Part shown: positions 41,105 to 54,513 of the stretch, one piece after another
Layout: each line of letters begins with the position of its first letter
Position numbering within the stretch: the stretch's first letter is position 1
Program-made: the position numbers and the translations under genes
Assembly (NCBI RefSeq): GCF_000959525.1
Contig: NZ_CP009830.1
Coordinates: 248,001 to 312,000 of the forward strand
Direction of reading: 5' to 3'
Source of the DNA: Burkholderia multivorans ATCC BAA-247
GTDB lineage: Bacteria; Pseudomonadota; Gammaproteobacteria; Burkholderiales; Burkholderiaceae
DNA length: 64,000 nucleotides
Notes under the pieces: generated by a model
Database searches by the model: none
Told to the model about the DNA's origin: nothing
Seen by the model: only the letters and a program-made list of their open reading frames with translations

Positions 41105-43384
41105 TCAGACGGTCGCCGAGCGCACGACGCGCACCGGCACCGACTTGTACGACGGCGTGCCGCTTTCCTTGTCGATATAGTCGAGCGGCACGAGCACGTT
41201 CGCTTCCGGGTAGTACGCACCGACCGAGCCGGGCGCGATGTCGTACTCGATCGCGGTGATCTTCTCGAGACGCAGCGTGCGGCCGGACGCGCTGATCGTC
41301 TCGATGTCGACGAGATCGCCGTGCTCGAGACCGTACTTCTCGAGATCCGCCGGATTCATGAACAGCACGTCGCGCCGCCCGAACACGCCGCGATAGCGAT
41401 CGTCGAGCCCGTAGATCGTCGTGTTGTACTGGTCGTGACTGCGCAGCGTGATGAGCCGCAGCACCTGCTCGCCGCCGAGCACTTCCGCGTCTTCCGCGAC
41501 GCCCTTGTACACCGAGAACATCGCCTTGCCGGTCGGCGTCGGCCACACGCGTTCGGTCGGCGGCAGCGGCAGCCGGAAGCCGCCCGGCGTGCGGATCCGT
41601 TCGTTGAACGCTTCGAAGCCGGGAATCGTGCGGTCGATCAGATCGCGGATCCGGTCGTAGTCGGCGATCAGGTCGAGCCATGCGACCTTGCTGTTCGGCA
41701 GCGTCGCATGCGCGATGCCGGCGACGATCGCGGGCTCCGAGCGCAGATGCTCGGAGGCCGGCTTCAGCTTGCCGGCCGACGCATGGACCATCGACATCGA
41801 ATCCTCGACCGTCACCGACTGCGGGCCGCCGGCCTGCACGTCGAGCTCGGTGCGCCCGAGCACCGGCAGGATGTAGGTCTCCTTCGCGACGAGCAGATGC
41901 GAGCGGTTCAGCTTCGTGCCGAGATGCACGCTCAGATCGAGCTTCGACATCGCGGGGAACGACTGCTCGGGATCGGGCAGCGCGACCGCGAAATTGCCGC
42001 CGAGACAGAGCAGCGCCTTCGCGGTGCCGTCGATCATCGCCTGCATGGCCTGCACCGCGTCGTGACCGTGATGCGACGGCGGCGTGAAGCCGAACACGTC
42101 CTCGAGCTTCTTCAGGAACTCGGCGGACGGCTTTTCGGTGATGCCGACCGTGCGGTTGCCCTGCACGTTCGAATGGCCGCGCAGCGGACAGATACCGGCG
42201 CCCGGCTTGCCGATGTTGCCGCGCAGCAGCAGCAGATCGGCGATCAGCCGCACGTTCGCGGTGCCCTTGTTGTGCTGCGTGACGCCCATCCCGTACGTGA
42301 CGATCGTCGCGTTCGACTTCGCATAGGCGAGCGCGACCTGTTCGAGCTGTGCCTGGCTGAGCCCGCTCGCATGCTCGATGTCGTCCCACGACGTCGCTTC
42401 GAGATCGGCCGCGAATGCGTCGAAGCCTTCGGTGTGCTGCGCGATGAACGCGCGATCGAGCACGTCGCCGCGCTCGGCCTCGAGCTGCAGCAGCGCCTTC
42501 ATGATGCCCTTCAGCGCGGCCGCGTCGCCGCCCGCATCGACCTGATAGTACGTCGATGCGATCCGCGTCGAACCGAACGACGCCATCTCGATCATGTCCT
42601 GCGGATCGGCGAAGCGTTCGAGCGCGCGCTCGCGCAGCGGATTGAACACGATGATCGGCACGTGGCGGCGCGCGCATTCGTGCAGCGTGCCCATCATCCG
42701 CGGATGGTTCGTGCCGGGATTGTGGCCGATCGAGATGATCAGCTCGCACCGGTCGAAATCCTCGAGCGACACGGTGCCCTTGCCGATGCCGATCGACTGC
42801 GGCAGCCCGACGCTCGTCGGCTCGTGGCACATGTTCGAGCAGTCGGGGAAGTTGTTCGTGCCGAGTTCGCGCGCGAACAGCTGATACAGGTACGCGGCCT
42901 CGTTCGAGGCACGGCCCGACGTATAGAACTCGATCTGCTCGGGCGGCAGCGCGCGCAGCACTTCGCCGATGCGCGCGAACGCGTCGTCCCATTCGACCGC
43001 GCGGAACGTGTCGGTCGCGCGATCGTAGACGAGCGGATGCGTGAGCCGACCCATGTTCTCGAGCTCGTAGTCCGACATGCGCAGCAGCGAGGAAACCGTA
43101 TTCGCCGCGAAGAACTCGGGCGTCACGCGCTTGGTCGTCGCTTCCCACGTGACGGCTTTCGCGCCGTTCTCGCAGAACTGGAACGTCGACTTGTGCTCCT
43201 TGTCCGGCCACGCGCAGCCGGGACAGTCGAAGCCGTCCGGCTGGTTGGTGCGCATCAGCGTGATCGGTGCCTCGATGGTCTCCATCTGCGTGCGGACGGC
43301 CTCGGCTGTCGCGCGAAGCGCGCCCCAACCGCCGGCGGGCCCGTCGTACTTCCTGATGCCTGGCACTTCGCGTCGATTTGTCAT
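41105..43384 (-). CDS. FdhF/YdeP-family molybdopterin oxidoreductase
   Basis: 759 residues, the same length as E. coli YdeP. MGD-binding regions include SIGHNPGTNHPRMMGTLHEC, GNIGKPGAGICPLRGHSN and the C-terminal LRSHDQYNTTIYG. The candidate Mo ligand is the Cys in FPDCSNMCHEPTSVG, aligning with the Sec/Cys of formate dehydrogenase H. N-terminal CPGCAWPD has cysteines but no full [4Fe-4S] pattern is obvious. The ATG at 43384 has GGAG 6 nt upstream. In E. coli the family is linked to acid resistance; activity uncertain. FdhD and MoeA in the window could mature it. Confidence 0.88.
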   Translation of the reverse strand: MTNRREVPGIRKYDGPAGGWGALRATAEAVRTQMETIEAPITLMRTNQPDGFDCPGCAWPDKEHKSTFQFCENGAKAVTWEATTKRVTPEFFAANTVSSLLRMSDYELENMGRLTHPLVYDRATDTFRAVEWDDAFARIGEVLRALPPEQIEFYTSGRASNEAAYLYQLFARELGTNNFPDCSNMCHEPTSVGLPQSIGIGKGTVSLEDFDRCELIISIGHNPGTNHPRMMGTLHECARRHVPIIVFNPLRERALERFADPQDMIEMASFGSTRIASTYYQVDAGGDAAALKGIMKALLQLEAERGDVLDRAFIAQHTEGFDAFAADLEATSWDDIEHASGLSQAQLEQVALAYAKSNATIVTYGMGVTQHNKGTANVRLIADLLLLRGNIGKPGAGICPLRGHSNVQGNRTVGITEKPSAEFLKKLEDVFGFTPPSHHGHDAVQAMQAMIDGTAKALLCLGGNFAVALPDPEQSFPAMSKLDLSVHLGTKLNRSHLLVAKETYILPVLGRTELDVQAGGPQSVTVEDSMSMVHASAGKLKPASEHLRSEPAIVAGIAHATLPNSKVAWLDLIADYDRIRDLIDRTIPGFEAFNERIRTPGGFRLPLPPTERVWPTPTGKAMFSVYKGVAEDAEVLGGEQVLRLITLRSHDQYNTTIYGLDDRYRGVFGRRDVLFMNPADLEKYGLEHGDLVDIETISASGRTLRLEKITAIEYDIAPGSVGAYYPEANVLVPLDYIDKESGTPSYKSVPVRVVRSATV

Positions 43385-43558: not shown

Positions 43559-46411
<2,853 letters not shown>

Positions 46412-47037
46412 GGTGGTCTGGCTCCTGTCAATGAAAGTGGATCGAAGGGCGACGTCCCGATGCGTGGCGGCAACGGAACGTGCTGACCGCGACACGCGGC
46501 GCGGCGCGGCGGCGCGCGCTCGGCGCCCGTACCGTCGCGCAGCGCGCGACGCGGCAGCCGGCGACGGCGTTCGGCACCGCGTACGCGCGCGCTTCGTGGA
46601 GCCCGCGGCTCGACTTCGACTGCGTTCAAAATAGCGAATCGCCGCAAGCCATCCAAGACACAGTTCCGTGTCGGTCCGTCGGCAAATTGCACCCTCGCAT
46701 GCGCGCGAACGCGGGCCGCGAGGAGTACAGACGCGCGTGCGCAGCTCCGCACGGGCGGGCGCGGCGCAGGACGAGGGGAAAGGCGGCGCCAGGCGGCGCG
46801 TGCGGCGCGTGCCGCGACCTCGGCGCGCAACGCGCCGGGCGGCGGTGCGGGGCGGACGATGCGCGCGGGAAACCGCAGCGCGAGCGCGAGCGCGCGACGG
46901 CGCGCGGCGGCTGCGGTGGCCGGTGTGTCAGGGGCGGGCGCGCGGGCGGCGCAACCGCTGTGCGCCGCGCAAGCGGCGACGAAGAGGGCGGCTTGCATGG
47001 CGCGAGCCGGCCGGCGCTCGCGCGCGACGCGGCGGCG
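46412..47037. other. Intergenic region upstream of clpK
   Basis: 626 bases with no credible gene; open frames are Arg/Ala-rich. On the minus strand TTGGAT (46656-46651), 17 nt, TATTTT (46633-46628) is a weak sigma70-like promoter for clpK, giving a leader of about 210 nt. No clear sigma32 site seen. Confidence 0.35.
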
Positions 47038-47307
47038 TCACGCGTCGAACGTCATCGCGAGCCGCTGTCGCGCGATCTGCTTGACGCTCGCGGACAACGC
47101 GGCGTCCGACAGACCGTCGGCCCATACGGAAAAGGAATCTTCGATCAGATTGCGCGTGTCGGGCGGCAGTTCGGCCAGCATCAGCGACACGACGGTGAAC
47201 AGCACGGCGACCTCGGCGGCCCGGCTGCCGGCGTTGGCGTCGACGGTTTGCTTCAGCCCGTCGACGGCGGCTTGCAGCTTCTGCATTGCATCATTCGTAT
47301 CGCTCAT
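47038..47307 (-). CDS. Small unknown protein downstream of encapsulin (89 aa)
   Basis: 89 residues, mainly helical: a heptad-like N-terminus (DAMQKLQAAVDGLKQTVDANAG), a hydrophobic helix (AEVAVLFTVVSLMLAELPPD) and a basic C-terminal helix ending QIARQRLAMTFDA. GGAGGG at 47317-47312 sets the ATG at 47307. It follows the encapsulin gene by 102 bp in the same direction and may be the third gene of that operon. It lacks the SLxIGSLK-type cargo tag. Family not recognised. Confidence 0.65.
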   Translation of the reverse strand: MSDTNDAMQKLQAAVDGLKQTVDANAGSRAAEVAVLFTVVSLMLAELPPDTRNLIEDSFSVWADGLSDAALSASVKQIARQRLAMTFDA

Positions 47308-47409
47308 GATTCCCTCCATGCGGGATGGGTTCGATCGGCGACGAACGGGCGGCCGCGGTGCGGCCGCAAAGCGCGCGACGCCGGGCCGGCATCGCGCGCG
47401 GGCGGCGCA

Positions 47410-48225
47410 TCAGGCGGCCGTGCCGGCAGCCGGCGCGACCGCGACCGACGCTTCGCTCGTCAGCATCAGGAACGTCAAGGTTTCGCGCAGATACAGGCGA
47501 ACGACCTTGTCGGTGTGGCTCGCATAGCCGATCGACACGTCTTCGCCGAGATGAAGCTCGTAATCGCCGCCGCGCGTCGACAGCACGCAGCCGCCGCTGA
47601 TCGCCGGCGCCCAGACGATCTCGCCGCTGACGATCCGCTTGATGTGCTCGATGACCGGATAGCCCTGATCGCGCGCCTCGCTGAGCGCGGTATAGGCGTC
47701 GGCGCCGAGCAGCACCGAGTACGGGCCGTCGACGCCCGCGAGGCGCAGCGCCTCGAGCGCATCGCTGATGGCGTCCGGATAGGCGCCGACGTCGCTCGGC
47801 AGCGTGAGCTTGCGGTTCGACGTGCCTTCGCGGATCCCGACGATGCCGGCGGCCGGATAGCCGTCGAAGATCGCGCTGTCTTCCGCGAACGCGAGTCGCT
47901 GCGCGGCTTCCTTGGCCGCCTGCCAGTCGGCGTCGCGTGCACCGCGCTCGACGCTGTCGATCGCGGCGCGGTCGAGTTCGAACGGCACCGTCAGCTCGAC
48001 GATCGTGCGCACCTCGCGCAGCCGCGCATCGACGTGCTCGCGCGGCGCCGCGACGTCGCGCAGGTGCCCGGTGCCGACGGCCGAGAGTTCGGGCCCCTTC
48101 GGGCCTTCGACGTCGACCACGCGGCGGCCGGCCACCGAACGCTTGAAGGTGCGCGCGACTTCTTCCTCGATTTGCTCCCAGGCGGCGCTGGAGATCGGCG
48201 CGAGTTCGCGGTGCAGATTGTTCAT
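47410..48225 (-). CDS. Family 1 encapsulin shell protein
   Basis: 271-residue HK97-fold capsid-like protein that self-assembles into a nanocompartment. Clear matches to family 1: ELAPISSAAWEQIEEEVART, GRRVVDVEGPKG, REVRTIVELTVPFELDRAAID, FDGYPAAGIVGI, GPYSVLLGADAY, STRGGDYELHLGEDVSIGY and LRETLTFLML. The start overlaps the DyP stop (ATGA), so shell and cargo are made from one mRNA in coupled fashion. Confidence 0.95.
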   Translation of the reverse strand: MNNLHRELAPISSAAWEQIEEEVARTFKRSVAGRRVVDVEGPKGPELSAVGTGHLRDVAAPREHVDARLREVRTIVELTVPFELDRAAIDSVERGARDADWQAAKEAAQRLAFAEDSAIFDGYPAAGIVGIREGTSNRKLTLPSDVGAYPDAISDALEALRLAGVDGPYSVLLGADAYTALSEARDQGYPVIEHIKRIVSGEIVWAPAISGGCVLSTRGGDYELHLGEDVSIGYASHTDKVVRLYLRETLTFLMLTSEASVAVAPAAGTAA

Positions 48226-49283
48226 ACGCTTTTGACTCCTTTGAGCGATCCGATTTTCAGCGAGCCGTCGCGGTGCGGCTCGTTCGATGACGGGGCGGCC
48301 TCCGCGGCCTCGACGGGTGCGGCGCGGTCGGGCAGCGCGTCGAGCAGGTCGGCCGACGGCACGAAGAACAGCGAGCCGGTAACCGCGCGGCTGAAATCGA
48401 GCAGCCGGTCGTAGTTGCCCGGCGGGCGGCCGACGAACATATTCTCGAGCATCTGCTCGATCGGTGCCGGCGAGCGCGCATAGCCGATGAAATAAGTGCC
48501 GAATTCTCCGGCGCCCGGCCGGCCGAACGGCATGTTGTCGCGCAGGATCTTCACTTCCTTGCCGTTCTCGTCGAGCGTCGTCAGCGAGCTGTGCGACGAC
48601 GACGGCTTCACGTCCGGCGCCAGCTCGATGTCGGACAGCTTCGTGCGGCCGATGATGCGCTCCTGCGTCTCGACCGGCAGCGCGTTCCAGCCGGCCATGT
48701 CGTGCAGGTACTTCTGCACGATGACGTAGCTGCCGCCGGCGAACGGCGCATCCTCGTCGCCGATCACCGTGAAGTCGACCGCATCGCGGCCTTCCGGATT
48801 CTCGGTGCCGTCGACGAAGCCGATCATCGCGCGCTGGTCGAAGTTGCGAAAGCCGTGCACTTCGTCGACGACGGTCACCGCATCGCCGAGCGCGGCGAGC
48901 AGTTGCGTCGCGAGCTCGAAGCAGAGGTCCATCGCATCGGCGCGAATGTGCAGCAGGATGTCGCCGGGCGTCGCGATCGCGACGCGCTGGCCGGCGCCGA
49001 ATTCGCGGAACGGATGCAATGCCGCGGGACGCGGTGCGCCGAACAGCGCGTCCCATGCGTCCGAGCCGAAGCCGCAGACGCACGACAGGTTGCCGCCCGG
49101 CACGCGCTTGCCGACCGAGCGCACAAGCGCGGCGATGTCGCCGCACCACGAGCGGATCGTGTCGGCATGCGCGTCGCCGGGATTGATCGTCGCGACGAGA
49201 AAGATCGCGCTGCGCGTGATCGGACTGTGGACGGCCTGGGAGAGCGGGGGACGTGTTTCCATCGCGGCCTGCCGGTCAGTCAT
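48222..49283 (-). CDS. DyP-type peroxidase with encapsulin-targeting tail
   Basis: 353-residue haem peroxidase. The GxxDG motif is GFVDG 155-159 (catalytic Asp158), proximal His231 (SSSHSSLTTL), distal Arg248 (KILRDNMPFG). After a 30-residue Ala/Pro linker the C-terminus DGSLKIGSLKGV is a canonical encapsulin cargo-loading peptide, so the enzyme should be packed inside the shell encoded next. Start ATG 49283 lacks a Shine-Dalgarno; ATG 49262 is possible. Confidence 0.95.
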   Translation of the reverse strand: MTDRQAAMETRPPLSQAVHSPITRSAIFLVATINPGDAHADTIRSWCGDIAALVRSVGKRVPGGNLSCVCGFGSDAWDALFGAPRPAALHPFREFGAGQRVAIATPGDILLHIRADAMDLCFELATQLLAALGDAVTVVDEVHGFRNFDQRAMIGFVDGTENPEGRDAVDFTVIGDEDAPFAGGSYVIVQKYLHDMAGWNALPVETQERIIGRTKLSDIELAPDVKPSSSHSSLTTLDENGKEVKILRDNMPFGRPGAGEFGTYFIGYARSPAPIEQMLENMFVGRPPGNYDRLLDFSRAVTGSLFFVPSADLLDALPDRAAPVEAAEAAPSSNEPHRDGSLKIGSLKGVKSV

Positions 49284-49691
49284 GTCGGGAAGGACGGCGC
49301 GCGGCTGCCGCGGCGCGCGAACGGAAACGGATGAACTCGGTCATGCGACTGTTCTCTTGTATGACATGCGGATGAAACGCGCTGCGTACGGTCGCAACGC
49401 GCAATGCGGCGCAATCGCCGCGCATGCGGAAAAGCGATGCACGCGGGCGCGGCGCATGCGCCCGGTGCGCGACGTTCGCTTCGCATCGCGCGGTCGAGCC
49501 TGCAATCTAGCAGCTTCGGCGAGTCTTTGGAACACGTATCGCCGATCTGTCCTGCGAATGCGCAAACCATGCACCGAATCCATCGTGCCGATGCGCGGCT
49601 GTACTCCTGCCGCACGCGCGGCTGTGCTCTTGTTTGTGCAGGTGGCGTGCAGTAGATTGGGTTCGCTCGGCCGCCGACGAGGAGCACGACG
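49284..49691. other. Divergent promoter region of the encapsulin operon
   Basis: 408 bases between the DyP gene and an HTH-only LysR gene. It contains GCGGCG/CGCCGC (49406-49421), a 6-bp stem with loop CAAT. It must hold both promoters but none is obvious. No OxyR-like site recognised. Confidence 0.4.
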
Positions 49692-50021
49692 ATGAATCTG
49701 CTTGAAGCGATGCGCATCTATGTTGCGGTGGTCGAGCACGGCGGACTGCCCGGTGCGGCGTCCGAACTGAAGCTCGCCGCCGCGCACGTGAGCGACCGGA
49801 TCGACGGCCTCGAACGCTATCTCGGCTGCCGTCTGCTGTTGCGCTGCGCCGATGACGGCATCGCATGCACCGATGCCGGCATCGCGTTTCATCAGTGTTG
49901 CGTTCGCACGCTGTCGGCCGTCGACGATGCGACGGCCGATGCCGGCATCCGGCCGCCCGACGCACACGTCGCCGAGGCGCGCCGCGCTGCGCCGCACGCG
50001 CTGCATGCGGCGCGTCGCTGA
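49692..50021 (+). CDS. HTH-only LysR-type protein (truncated?)
   Basis: 109 residues. The first about 62 are a LysR winged-helix domain (MRIYVAVVEHGGLPGAASEL, HVSDRIDGLERYLGCRLLLR). The expected about 200-residue effector domain is absent; the rest is Ala/Arg-rich (AEARRAAPHALHAARR). GGAG at 49681-49684 precedes the ATG. Either a pseudogene fragment or a mini-regulator divergent from the encapsulin operon. LAAAHVSDRI in place of the usual SQPAVSxxI is an atypical recognition helix. Confidence 0.6.
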   Translation: MNLLEAMRIYVAVVEHGGLPGAASELKLAAAHVSDRIDGLERYLGCRLLLRCADDGIACTDAGIAFHQCCVRTLSAVDDATADAGIRPPDAHVAEARRAAPHALHAARR

Positions 50022-50052: not shown

Positions 50053-50505
50053 ATGCTGAATACGTCCACCGTCGCCTGTTCGCCCGCCGAGCGCATTCGC
50101 CGCCGCTTCGGCCATTTTCTCCATGCGGCCGAACTCGCGGGGCTGATCGTGATCGGCCTCGCGACGGCGTTCGCGATGGCGCAGGAGGCGTGGAAGGTCG
50201 TGCTCGCGGGCGAGGTGTCGCTGACCGACCTGCTGCTGATGTTCCTGTATCTCGAAGTGCTCGCGATGGACGTGCGCTATCTGCGGCTCGGCCGCCTACC
50301 GGTGCGCTTTCCGCTGTTCATCGCGATGACGTCGCTCGCGCGCGACCTGATCCTGCGCGGCGCGACCGACAGCCCCGCGCGGATGCTGATGACGACGTTC
50401 GGCATCGTGCTGCTCGCGCTCGGCGTGCTGATCCTCAGTTTCGGCCAGCACCGGTATCCGGCCGAAGTCGGCGACGTCGAGGACGATGTGCGTGCGAGCC
50501 GGTGA
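50053..50505 (+). CDS. PsiE-family inner-membrane protein
   Basis: 150 residues, four hydrophobic segments with the phosphate-starvation-inducible PsiE pattern: AELAGLIVIGLATAFAM, LLLMFLYLEVLAMDVRYLR and FPLFIAMTSLARDLIL. Function unknown in any organism. Weak Shine-Dalgarno; the ATG at 50053 begins just before the conserved region. Starts a run of small stress-type genes. Confidence 0.82.
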   Translation: MLNTSTVACSPAERIRRRFGHFLHAAELAGLIVIGLATAFAMAQEAWKVVLAGEVSLTDLLLMFLYLEVLAMDVRYLRLGRLPVRFPLFIAMTSLARDLILRGATDSPARMLMTTFGIVLLALGVLILSFGQHRYPAEVGDVEDDVRASR

Positions 50506-53352: not shown

Positions 53353-54513
53353 TCACGTGAGCCGGTACGACTGCTCGCCGGTGCCCGCGAGCGTGCCGCC
53401 GTCGACGATTAGGTAGGCCTCGCGAATCGGCCGGCGCTCGAACCAGCACTGCAGAATTTCGAGCGTACCGGCCGCGTAGCGCGCCTGCGCGGATAGCGAC
53501 GTGCCCGAGATATGCGGCGTCATCCCGTTGAACGGCATCGCGCGCCACGGATGATCGGCCGGTGCGGGCTCGGGAAACCACACGTCGCCGCCGTAGCCGG
53601 CAAGATGGCCCGAGGCGACCGCACGCACGATCGCGTCGCGATCGACGAGTTTCGCGCGCGCGGTGTTGATCAGATACGCGCCGCGCTTCATGCGCGCGAT
53701 CATTGCGGCATCGAACAGATGCTCGGTCGACGGATAGAGCGGAATCTGCAGATTCACGATGTCGACCGCGCTCGCGAGCGACGCGACGTCCGCGTGATAG
53801 GTCAGCGCGAGTTCGTGTTCGATCGCCGGATCGAGCCGATGCCGCTGCGTATAGTGCAGCGCCAGCCCGAACGGCTTCAGCCGCCGCAGCACCGCGAGCC
53901 CGATGCGGCCGGCGCCGACCGTGCCGAAATGCATGCCTTCGATGTCGTAGCTGCGCGATACGCAGTCGGCGATGTTCCAGCCGCCTTGCTGCGCGATCGC
54001 GTGCGACGGCAGATAGTTGCGCACGAGCGCAAGCGTCGTCATCACGACATGCTCGGCGACGCTGACGCTGTTCGATCCGGTGACTTCCGCGACGGTGATG
54101 CCCGCGCGGGCGGCCGCCGCGAGATCGACGTGATCGGAGCCGATGCCCGCAGTCAGCGCGAGCCGCAGCTTCGGCGCGCGCGCGATCCGCTCGGCGGTCA
54201 GATACGCGGGCCAGAACGGCTGCGAAATCACGACGTCCGCTTCCGGCAGCCGGCGCTCGAATTCGGAGTCGGGGCCGTCCTTGTCGCTCGTCACGATCAG
54301 CGTATGACCGTGCGCCGCCAGATAGTCGCGCAAGCCGAGCGCGCCCGATACCGAGCCGACGAGTTCGCCCGGCCGAAAACCGGGCGGCCCGGACGGCGTC
54401 GGCGCGAGCTGGCCGTCCGCGTAGTGCGTGATGACGGGAATCGTGTCGCGCACGTAGCGCGGCGGATAGCCGTCGACGGGGTCGGGGTACAGCACGCAGA
54501 GGACGGTCGCCAT
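53353..54513 (-). CDS. fdh: Formate dehydrogenase, NADP-preferring type
   Basis: 386-residue metal-free D-2-hydroxyacid-dehydrogenase-fold enzyme oxidising formate to CO2. Landmarks: VLCVLYPDPVDGYP, substrate loop QPFWPAYLT at 98-106, TGSNSVSVAEH, dinucleotide motif GTVGAGRIG, and PHISGTSLSAQARYA. At the coenzyme-specificity position the usual Asp is Gln223 (HYTQRHRL), as in the NADP-dependent B. stabilis enzyme, so NADP is the likely acceptor. The second ATG (54513) is chosen: GGAG lies 6 nt upstream. It is cytoplasmic and needs no molybdenum cofactor. Confidence 0.93.
   Translation of the reverse strand: MATVLCVLYPDPVDGYPPRYVRDTIPVITHYADGQLAPTPSGPPGFRPGELVGSVSGALGLRDYLAAHGHTLIVTSDKDGPDSEFERRLPEADVVISQPFWPAYLTAERIARAPKLRLALTAGIGSDHVDLAAAARAGITVAEVTGSNSVSVAEHVVMTTLALVRNYLPSHAIAQQGGWNIADCVSRSYDIEGMHFGTVGAGRIGLAVLRRLKPFGLALHYTQRHRLDPAIEHELALTYHADVASLASAVDIVNLQIPLYPSTEHLFDAAMIARMKRGAYLINTARAKLVDRDAIVRAVASGHLAGYGGDVWFPEPAPADHPWRAMPFNGMTPHISGTSLSAQARYAAGTLEILQCWFERRPIREAYLIVDGGTLAGTGEQSYRLT

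Follow-up and report, generated by a model that had tools for sequence, protein, structure and literature searches.

The locus lies on the smallest replicon of Burkholderia multivorans, a bacterium of soil and lung, within a 64,000-nucleotide stretch that is here called the window. On the reverse strand, a gene for a DyP-type peroxidase, the gene for a family 1 encapsulin shell protein and a small third gene stand in this order, with genes for a ClpK-like disaggregase and an FdhF/YdeP family oxidoreductase beyond them (Table 1). The peroxidase scored 290.7 bits against TIGR01413 (cut-off 100.5) and also exceeded the cut-offs of the Pfam DyP domains, while the shell protein scored 347 bits against NF041155 (encap_f1, cut-off 100) and 326 bits against PF04454. 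As the initial annotation had claimed from the letters alone, the peroxidase carries a C-terminal cargo tag (DGSLKIGSLKG, the protein ending in ...RDGSLKIGSLKGVKSV) and its stop codon overlaps the encapsulin start, in this case by 4 bp. The end of the peroxidase, DGSLKIGSLKGV, agrees with the targeting-peptide consensus GSLxIGSLK published in a passage of PMC10960027, and GSL[KN]IGSLKG stands near the DyP C-terminus in 52 of the genus's 53 encapsulin loci; in the remaining one, G023, the stretch read contained no DyP. With shell protein, DyP cargo, tag, and adjacent cargo and shell genes all present in the window, the two-gene core is a family 1 DyP encapsulin of an already known kind; what is new relative to this core is that the Burkholderia cepacia complex version of the operon comes with a third protein-coding gene.

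Table 1 Features of the locus, listed from high to low window positions, with examples from other genomes in the last row
Feature	Position	Strand	Basis or remark
NAD-dependent formate dehydrogenase, ~4 kb upstream	53353..54513	-	Annotation of syntenic record
PsiE family protein, divergent	50053..50505	+	Annotation of syntenic record
DyP-type peroxidase (cargo), 353 aa	48222..49283	-	PF04261, PF20628, TIGR01413
C-terminal encapsulin targeting peptide DGSLKIGSLKGVKSV	48225..48269	-	Sequence; consensus GSLxIGSLK (passage of PMC10960027)
Family 1 encapsulin shell protein, 271 aa	47410..48225	-	NF041155, PF04454
GC-rich hairpin after encapsulin stop, 13-bp stem	47371..47399	-	Kept stem, re-pairing of changed arms
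Ribosome binding site of small gene, GGAGGG	47312..47317	-	Sequence; 4 nt before ATG
Small third gene, 89-aa acidic (pI 4.3), predicted helical orphan, no cargo tag	47038..47307	-	Conservation, selection, model
ClpK-like AAA+ disaggregase	43559..46411 (open frame to 46495)	-	Clp_N, AAA_2 and ClpB_D2-small domains
FdhF/YdeP family oxidoreductase	41105..43384	-	Annotation of syntenic record
Examples of inserts upstream of encapsulin	L066, L069, L074, L075; G023:C3:905486-909698		

Products of this core may already have been met in other contexts. A Dyp-type peroxidase of B. multivorans recognised by patient sera may be the window DyP, given its 37.2 kDa and pI 4.8 (stated in a passage of PMC3829912) against the computed 37.8 kDa and pI 5.0. 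Among the B. cenocepacia K56-2 mutants most depleted under hydrogen peroxide was one in a DyP, the passage of PMC10846046 that reports it not stating which DyP; the genome of the window itself encodes a second, distant DyP elsewhere (31% identity). Burkholderia linocin (Pfam Linocin_M18) is probably the same shell protein; the passages of PMC4931627 that describe Linocin as a protective Bcc antigen treat it as an antigen and make no mention of a downstream gene.

The small third gene and its product

The third gene had been described as a well-initiated 89-residue frame lying 102 bp past the encapsulin gene on the same strand, and both points held on inspection: GGAGGG stands 4 nt 5′ of the ATG, RefSeq uses the same start in a syntenic B. 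multivorans record (hypothetical protein WP_006407382.1), and the gap spans 47308-47409. An alternative in-frame ATG upstream would yield 93 residues; the 89-residue start is the one kept in relatives, where GGAG occurs at most 24 nt upstream in 42 of 42 copies and the start codon is ATG in 41 and GTG in one. All copies except that of G012, which is split into two frames, are intact at exactly 89 residues (41/42), and the window protein is 72-97% identical to the 40 other intact ones. At codon positions 1, 2 and 3, respectively, 49, 29 and 71 of the 89 columns vary, and the 820 pairs among the 41 intact copies gave medians of 0.075 for dN, 0.319 for dS and 0.23 for dN/dS (highest single pair, 0.75). 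Taken together, the intact copies, the dN/dS, the codon-position pattern and the kept GGAG argue from sequence that this is a protein-coding gene under purifying selection, one that changes faster than the encapsulin gene of the same genomes (dN/dS 0.23 versus 0.10). That the frame is a hitchhiking or decaying orphan without selected function is quite improbable in view of its intactness, its dN/dS and the 39 of 89 protein columns that are invariant in a 16-sequence alignment, even though it is found in one genus only, is missing from 11 of the 53 encapsulin loci and is broken in G012. A match of the Rfam sRNA BTH_s1 antisense to the small gene (47183-47284, forward strand) was rejected at 19.4 bits against a gathering score of 74.

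The encoded protein (9.4 kDa, pI 4.3) has no cysteine in any of 42 sequences. Its helical character, also asserted in the initial annotation, stands only as a predicted secondary structure: AlphaFold2 placed four helices with low confidence, at a mean pLDDT of 61 with 16 sequences and 64 with 26. With the first of these models (pLDDT 61), Foldseek gave no match at E 0.001 and no usable PDB fold match; the best PDB sequence match had an E of 0.23, NCBIfam and PHROGs held nothing at E 1, and the FliS flagellar chaperone was discarded as a family assignment (Pfam, 13 bits versus a cut-off of 26.7, E 0.13). Maxima of 19-residue hydropathy ranged over 1.31-1.78 in 41 small proteins, the window copy being the highest at 1.78, so that contact with a membrane is conceivable. 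The reported lack of a cargo tag was confirmed across the family, in that no GSL motif, and hence no targeting peptide of the kind that marks encapsulin cargo, occurs in any of the 42 sequences (G012 entered by its first piece). Together with the variable C-terminal residues, this makes it the least probable of the readings considered here that the protein is a further cargo, loaded through some unrecognised signal, although its small size and its linkage to the shell gene instead of the DyP gene would suit one.

Relatives were sought with a profile of 16 sequences in searches that, for most genomes, scored the 13-17 highest-ranking first-look candidates, so that a diverged relative could escape. 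Among 398 Burkholderiaceae genomes, 41 matched, all of them Burkholderia, and other genera gave none; one of the 41, in G084 (20.6 bits, in an 1828-aa frame), was judged chance. Encapsulin was found in 140 of 398 Burkholderiaceae genomes (the same sample, judging by the handles), 91 of these in other genera, and 20 encapsulin loci picked from the 91, covering four genera, contained no relative of the small gene. In two loci of other genera (L151, L152), the encapsulin is only ~60% identical and lies upstream of DyP, the usual order being DyP-encapsulin. Searches of 398 genomes from the phylum and 300 from the order recovered the two Burkholderia genomes that the samples contained and three matches at E 0.006-0.008. 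The match in G844 is a short, hydrophobic peptide, and no encapsulin appeared among the frames listed; those in G776 and G1032 were put down to chance on the strength of score and frame length alone. IMG/VR yielded no confirmed relative, and the literature passages found on these systems do not mention the gene. As far as the collections searched show, the family thus appears restricted to Burkholderia; its recognised named carriers we take to be members of the B. cepacia complex.

Linkage of the small gene to the shell gene

Across 65 Burkholderia genomes, encapsulin (PF04454) was found in 53 and the small gene in 42, all of which have encapsulin; the small gene starts 92-113 bp past the encapsulin stop in 42 of 42 cases and occurs in none of the 12 encapsulin-less genomes. 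In a plasmid collection, the small protein matched five records, again all Burkholderia and all with the gene directly behind encapsulin (called by sequence in H1, H3 and H5, by annotation in H2 and by the positions of both matches in H4). The initial annotation had held that small genes widespread without encapsulin neighbours would speak against its proposal; such genes were looked for, and the neighbour was there in 42 of 42 genus loci and 5 of 5 plasmid records. These occurrences right behind encapsulin point to a functional link, and to this extent the earlier suggestion of a new component gains ground, but its structural side does not, with no structure match found and the gene absent from 11 of the 53 loci.

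The strength of the co-occurrence (Fisher p 3e-7, not corrected for descent) is inflated by shared descent and synteny, as 9 of the 12 encapsulin-less genomes lie outside the carriers' clade. On a gyrB tree of 64 genomes (all but G014, which gave no match at the chosen limit), which represents one marker and has several weak nodes, these nine fall into a separate clade of ten without carriers, and encapsulin-less G080 sits beside the non-carrier G009. The remaining two, G001 and G003, are nested among carriers and lack both genes; they could be joint losses of encapsulin and small gene and would then speak, weakly, for linkage, but G001, an assembly of two contigs only, may lack the whole replicon. 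The shell evidently does not need the small gene, because 11 encapsulin loci are without it and one of these non-carriers, G022, is nested among carriers on an encapsulin tree that covers 53 of 53 loci. Shell residues that split carriers from non-carriers (e.g. E17) were set aside as confounded by descent. One genome, G025, groups among carriers on the gyrB tree and with non-carriers on the encapsulin tree, as if the operon had been transferred.

The spacing of the genes ties the small gene to the shell more closely than to the cargo. The overlap between the DyP and encapsulin genes is kept in 42 of the 53 loci (4 bp in three, 8 bp in 39), and the two genes are separated by 443-1034 bp in ten others and by 4.2 kb in G023. 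All 11 genomes with such inserts keep the small gene, at a distance of 102-104 bp from encapsulin, so it follows the shell and not the DyP set apart from it. The insert frames listed for five of the 11 (G069, G076, G013, G026 and G023) shared no cargo-like frame by eye, and no extra cargo gene is therefore claimed. In G023, DyP matches at full length 4.2 kb upstream of encapsulin and persists beside it as a C-terminal fragment.

Within the gap itself, a hairpin follows the encapsulin stop (Table 1). In 36 of the 42 carriers, the gap contains a stem of 10-17 bp within its first 55 nt. Over this region of all 42 gaps, the longest predicted stem had a median length of 13 bp, with a median z of -3.2 when each was compared with 60 dinucleotide-shuffled versions; the stem is only 7-9 bp long in G079, G027, G077, G072, G063 and G015, in some of which it is a different stem. 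Each arm takes 31 distinct forms, different lengths being counted as different, and several of the changes are compensatory by eye (e.g. G061, G064, G004). Strong hairpins also stand past encapsulin in several non-carriers, so the structure goes with the end of the encapsulin gene. A long T-run is lacking, and none of the six terminator-like sites returned by our scan corresponds to this hairpin, which may stabilise the message or end part of it; its place between shell and small gene weakens a simple three-gene operon without refuting it. A scan for consensus sigma-70 promoters found none in 46400-49700. Between the small gene and the ClpK-like gene, 46412-47037 contains blocks conserved in 40 genomes that could be a separate ClpK promoter.

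The wider cluster and related loci

The original three-gene picture proved too narrow: past the small gene, the same strand usually also carries genes for a ClpK-like ATPase (43559..46411 in the window) and an FdhF/YdeP oxidoreductase. A scan of named species genomes with two short peptide patterns located 25 small-gene loci, all in Burkholderia, many of them from the same assemblies as the genus genomes and two (L079 and L103) ending too early. In the 23 with enough sequence, the ClpK-like gene follows the small gene directly in 21 and FdhF/YdeP lies downstream in all; the small gene is retained even in L089 (B. dolosa), which has no ClpK, and in L094, which has a ClpK remnant only. A genome-wide search (13 genomes searched) covered the genomes that correspond to these two loci, G064 and G015, and found no close ClpK there, only paralogues at ~50% identity and the G015 remnant. 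The ~3.7 kb downstream of encapsulin in the 11 non-carrier loci hold ClpK in four (84-89% identity over >900 aa), a ClpK remnant in one, FdhF/YdeP in six and neither in five.

The 21 loci in which the small gene directly precedes the ClpK-like gene would fit an adaptor or partner of the downstream disaggregase. This assignment is highly improbable, because the small gene persists in two genomes without a close ClpK, encapsulin and ClpK occur without it in L057, L059, L061 and L063, and ~630 bp with conserved blocks precede the annotated ClpK start. A less specific alternative carries far more weight: the small protein may be one more gene product of a stress-tolerance cluster (NAD-dependent formate dehydrogenase, PsiE, DyP-encapsulin, ClpK-like, FdhF/YdeP), co-expressed and never touching the shell. 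In B. pyrrocinia LWK2, G022 and G031, a cytosine permease gene 93-94% identical to that of the window stands directly after encapsulin, whereas in B. multivorans it comes after FdhF/YdeP, so that these genomes are without all three of the small gene, ClpK and FdhF/YdeP. This common absence and the conserved stress-type neighbours both favour an unattached, co-regulated stress protein, which we consider nearly as likely as the non-cargo accessory discussed below; it is countered by the retention of the small gene with encapsulin and without ClpK in G064 and G015, and by the failure to find the gene in any sampled genome that lacks encapsulin.

Parts of this cluster recur around DyP encapsulins of other bacteria. 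The enterobacterial family 1 DyP encapsulins treated in passages of PMC10960027 and PMC12140327 share the two-gene core and the GSLxIGSLK tag with the window, their shell and DyP being ~57-58% identical to those analysed here. On five enterobacterial plasmids inspected, chosen among 30 listed of 63 records, a formate dehydrogenase homologue lies just upstream of DyP in all five (74-77% over 123-297 aa), as in the window, and on three a ClpK-like ATPase follows 2.4 kb past encapsulin (79% over 890 aa; L154 10178-12847, L162 10167-12836 and L163 10178-12847). On the other two, the 7 kb read contained no ClpK-like match, and one Sphingobium plasmid gave none either. The higher identity of the ClpK-like proteins across genera (79% against 57-58% for the shells) suggests separate transfer or stronger constraint. 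Clp-type, AAA, disaggregase and mechanosensitive terms are absent from the main texts of PMC10960027 and PMC12140327. Unlike the window, the enterobacterial loci have, according to passages of the same two papers, an RpoH-like sigma factor downstream in the place of the small gene, which itself had no match on the five plasmids. Actinobacterial DyP encapsulin operons resemble the window in having extra genes of unknown function; those named for Mycobacteria and Streptomyces in a passage of PMC8346489 (short-chain oxidoreductases, cupins, DUF1345, DUF5709 and decarboxylase-type enzymes) differ from the small family-less orphan, and that passage names none like it.

A candidate accessory of the shell system

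We consider it most likely, as a tentative candidate only, that the small protein serves the shell system of this lineage as an accessory other than cargo, a reading that the genomes keeping small gene and encapsulin without a close ClpK (G064 and G015) were counted to favour. Several observations temper it. Common ancestry and synteny swell the co-occurrence, the hydropathy of the window copy would permit contact with a membrane, ClpK-like and FdhF/YdeP are nearly as faithful neighbours, the hairpin could be a partial terminator between shell and small gene, 11 of the 53 encapsulin loci do without the gene, it evolves faster than the shell, and its structure model is weak. A more specific proposal has the protein, confined to Burkholderia, serve the family 1 encapsulin exclusively, either as a non-cargo subunit or in its maturation, and be encoded between the shell gene and the ClpK-like disaggregase in a module against peroxide and proteotoxic stress; this we regard as rather unlikely.

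Under the accessory reading, DyP would be loaded into the shell by its tag and, once loaded, would consume hydrogen peroxide. The small protein would be made from the same message as the shell, past the conserved hairpin, which may keep its level lower than that of the shell. As an acidic protein without a tag, it would probably act outside the lumen, assisting either the shell or DyP that is still to be loaded, for example as an assembly helper, a decorator or a handover factor.

Encapsulins are usually described as a shell with its cargo. The small gene, so far found only behind the shell gene and staying there where DyP is set apart, is a candidate for a non-cargo accessory of such a system, and the recurring ClpK-like neighbour, in Burkholderia and at some enterobacterial DyP encapsulin loci, suggests that these nanocompartments may belong to a wider protein-damage module.
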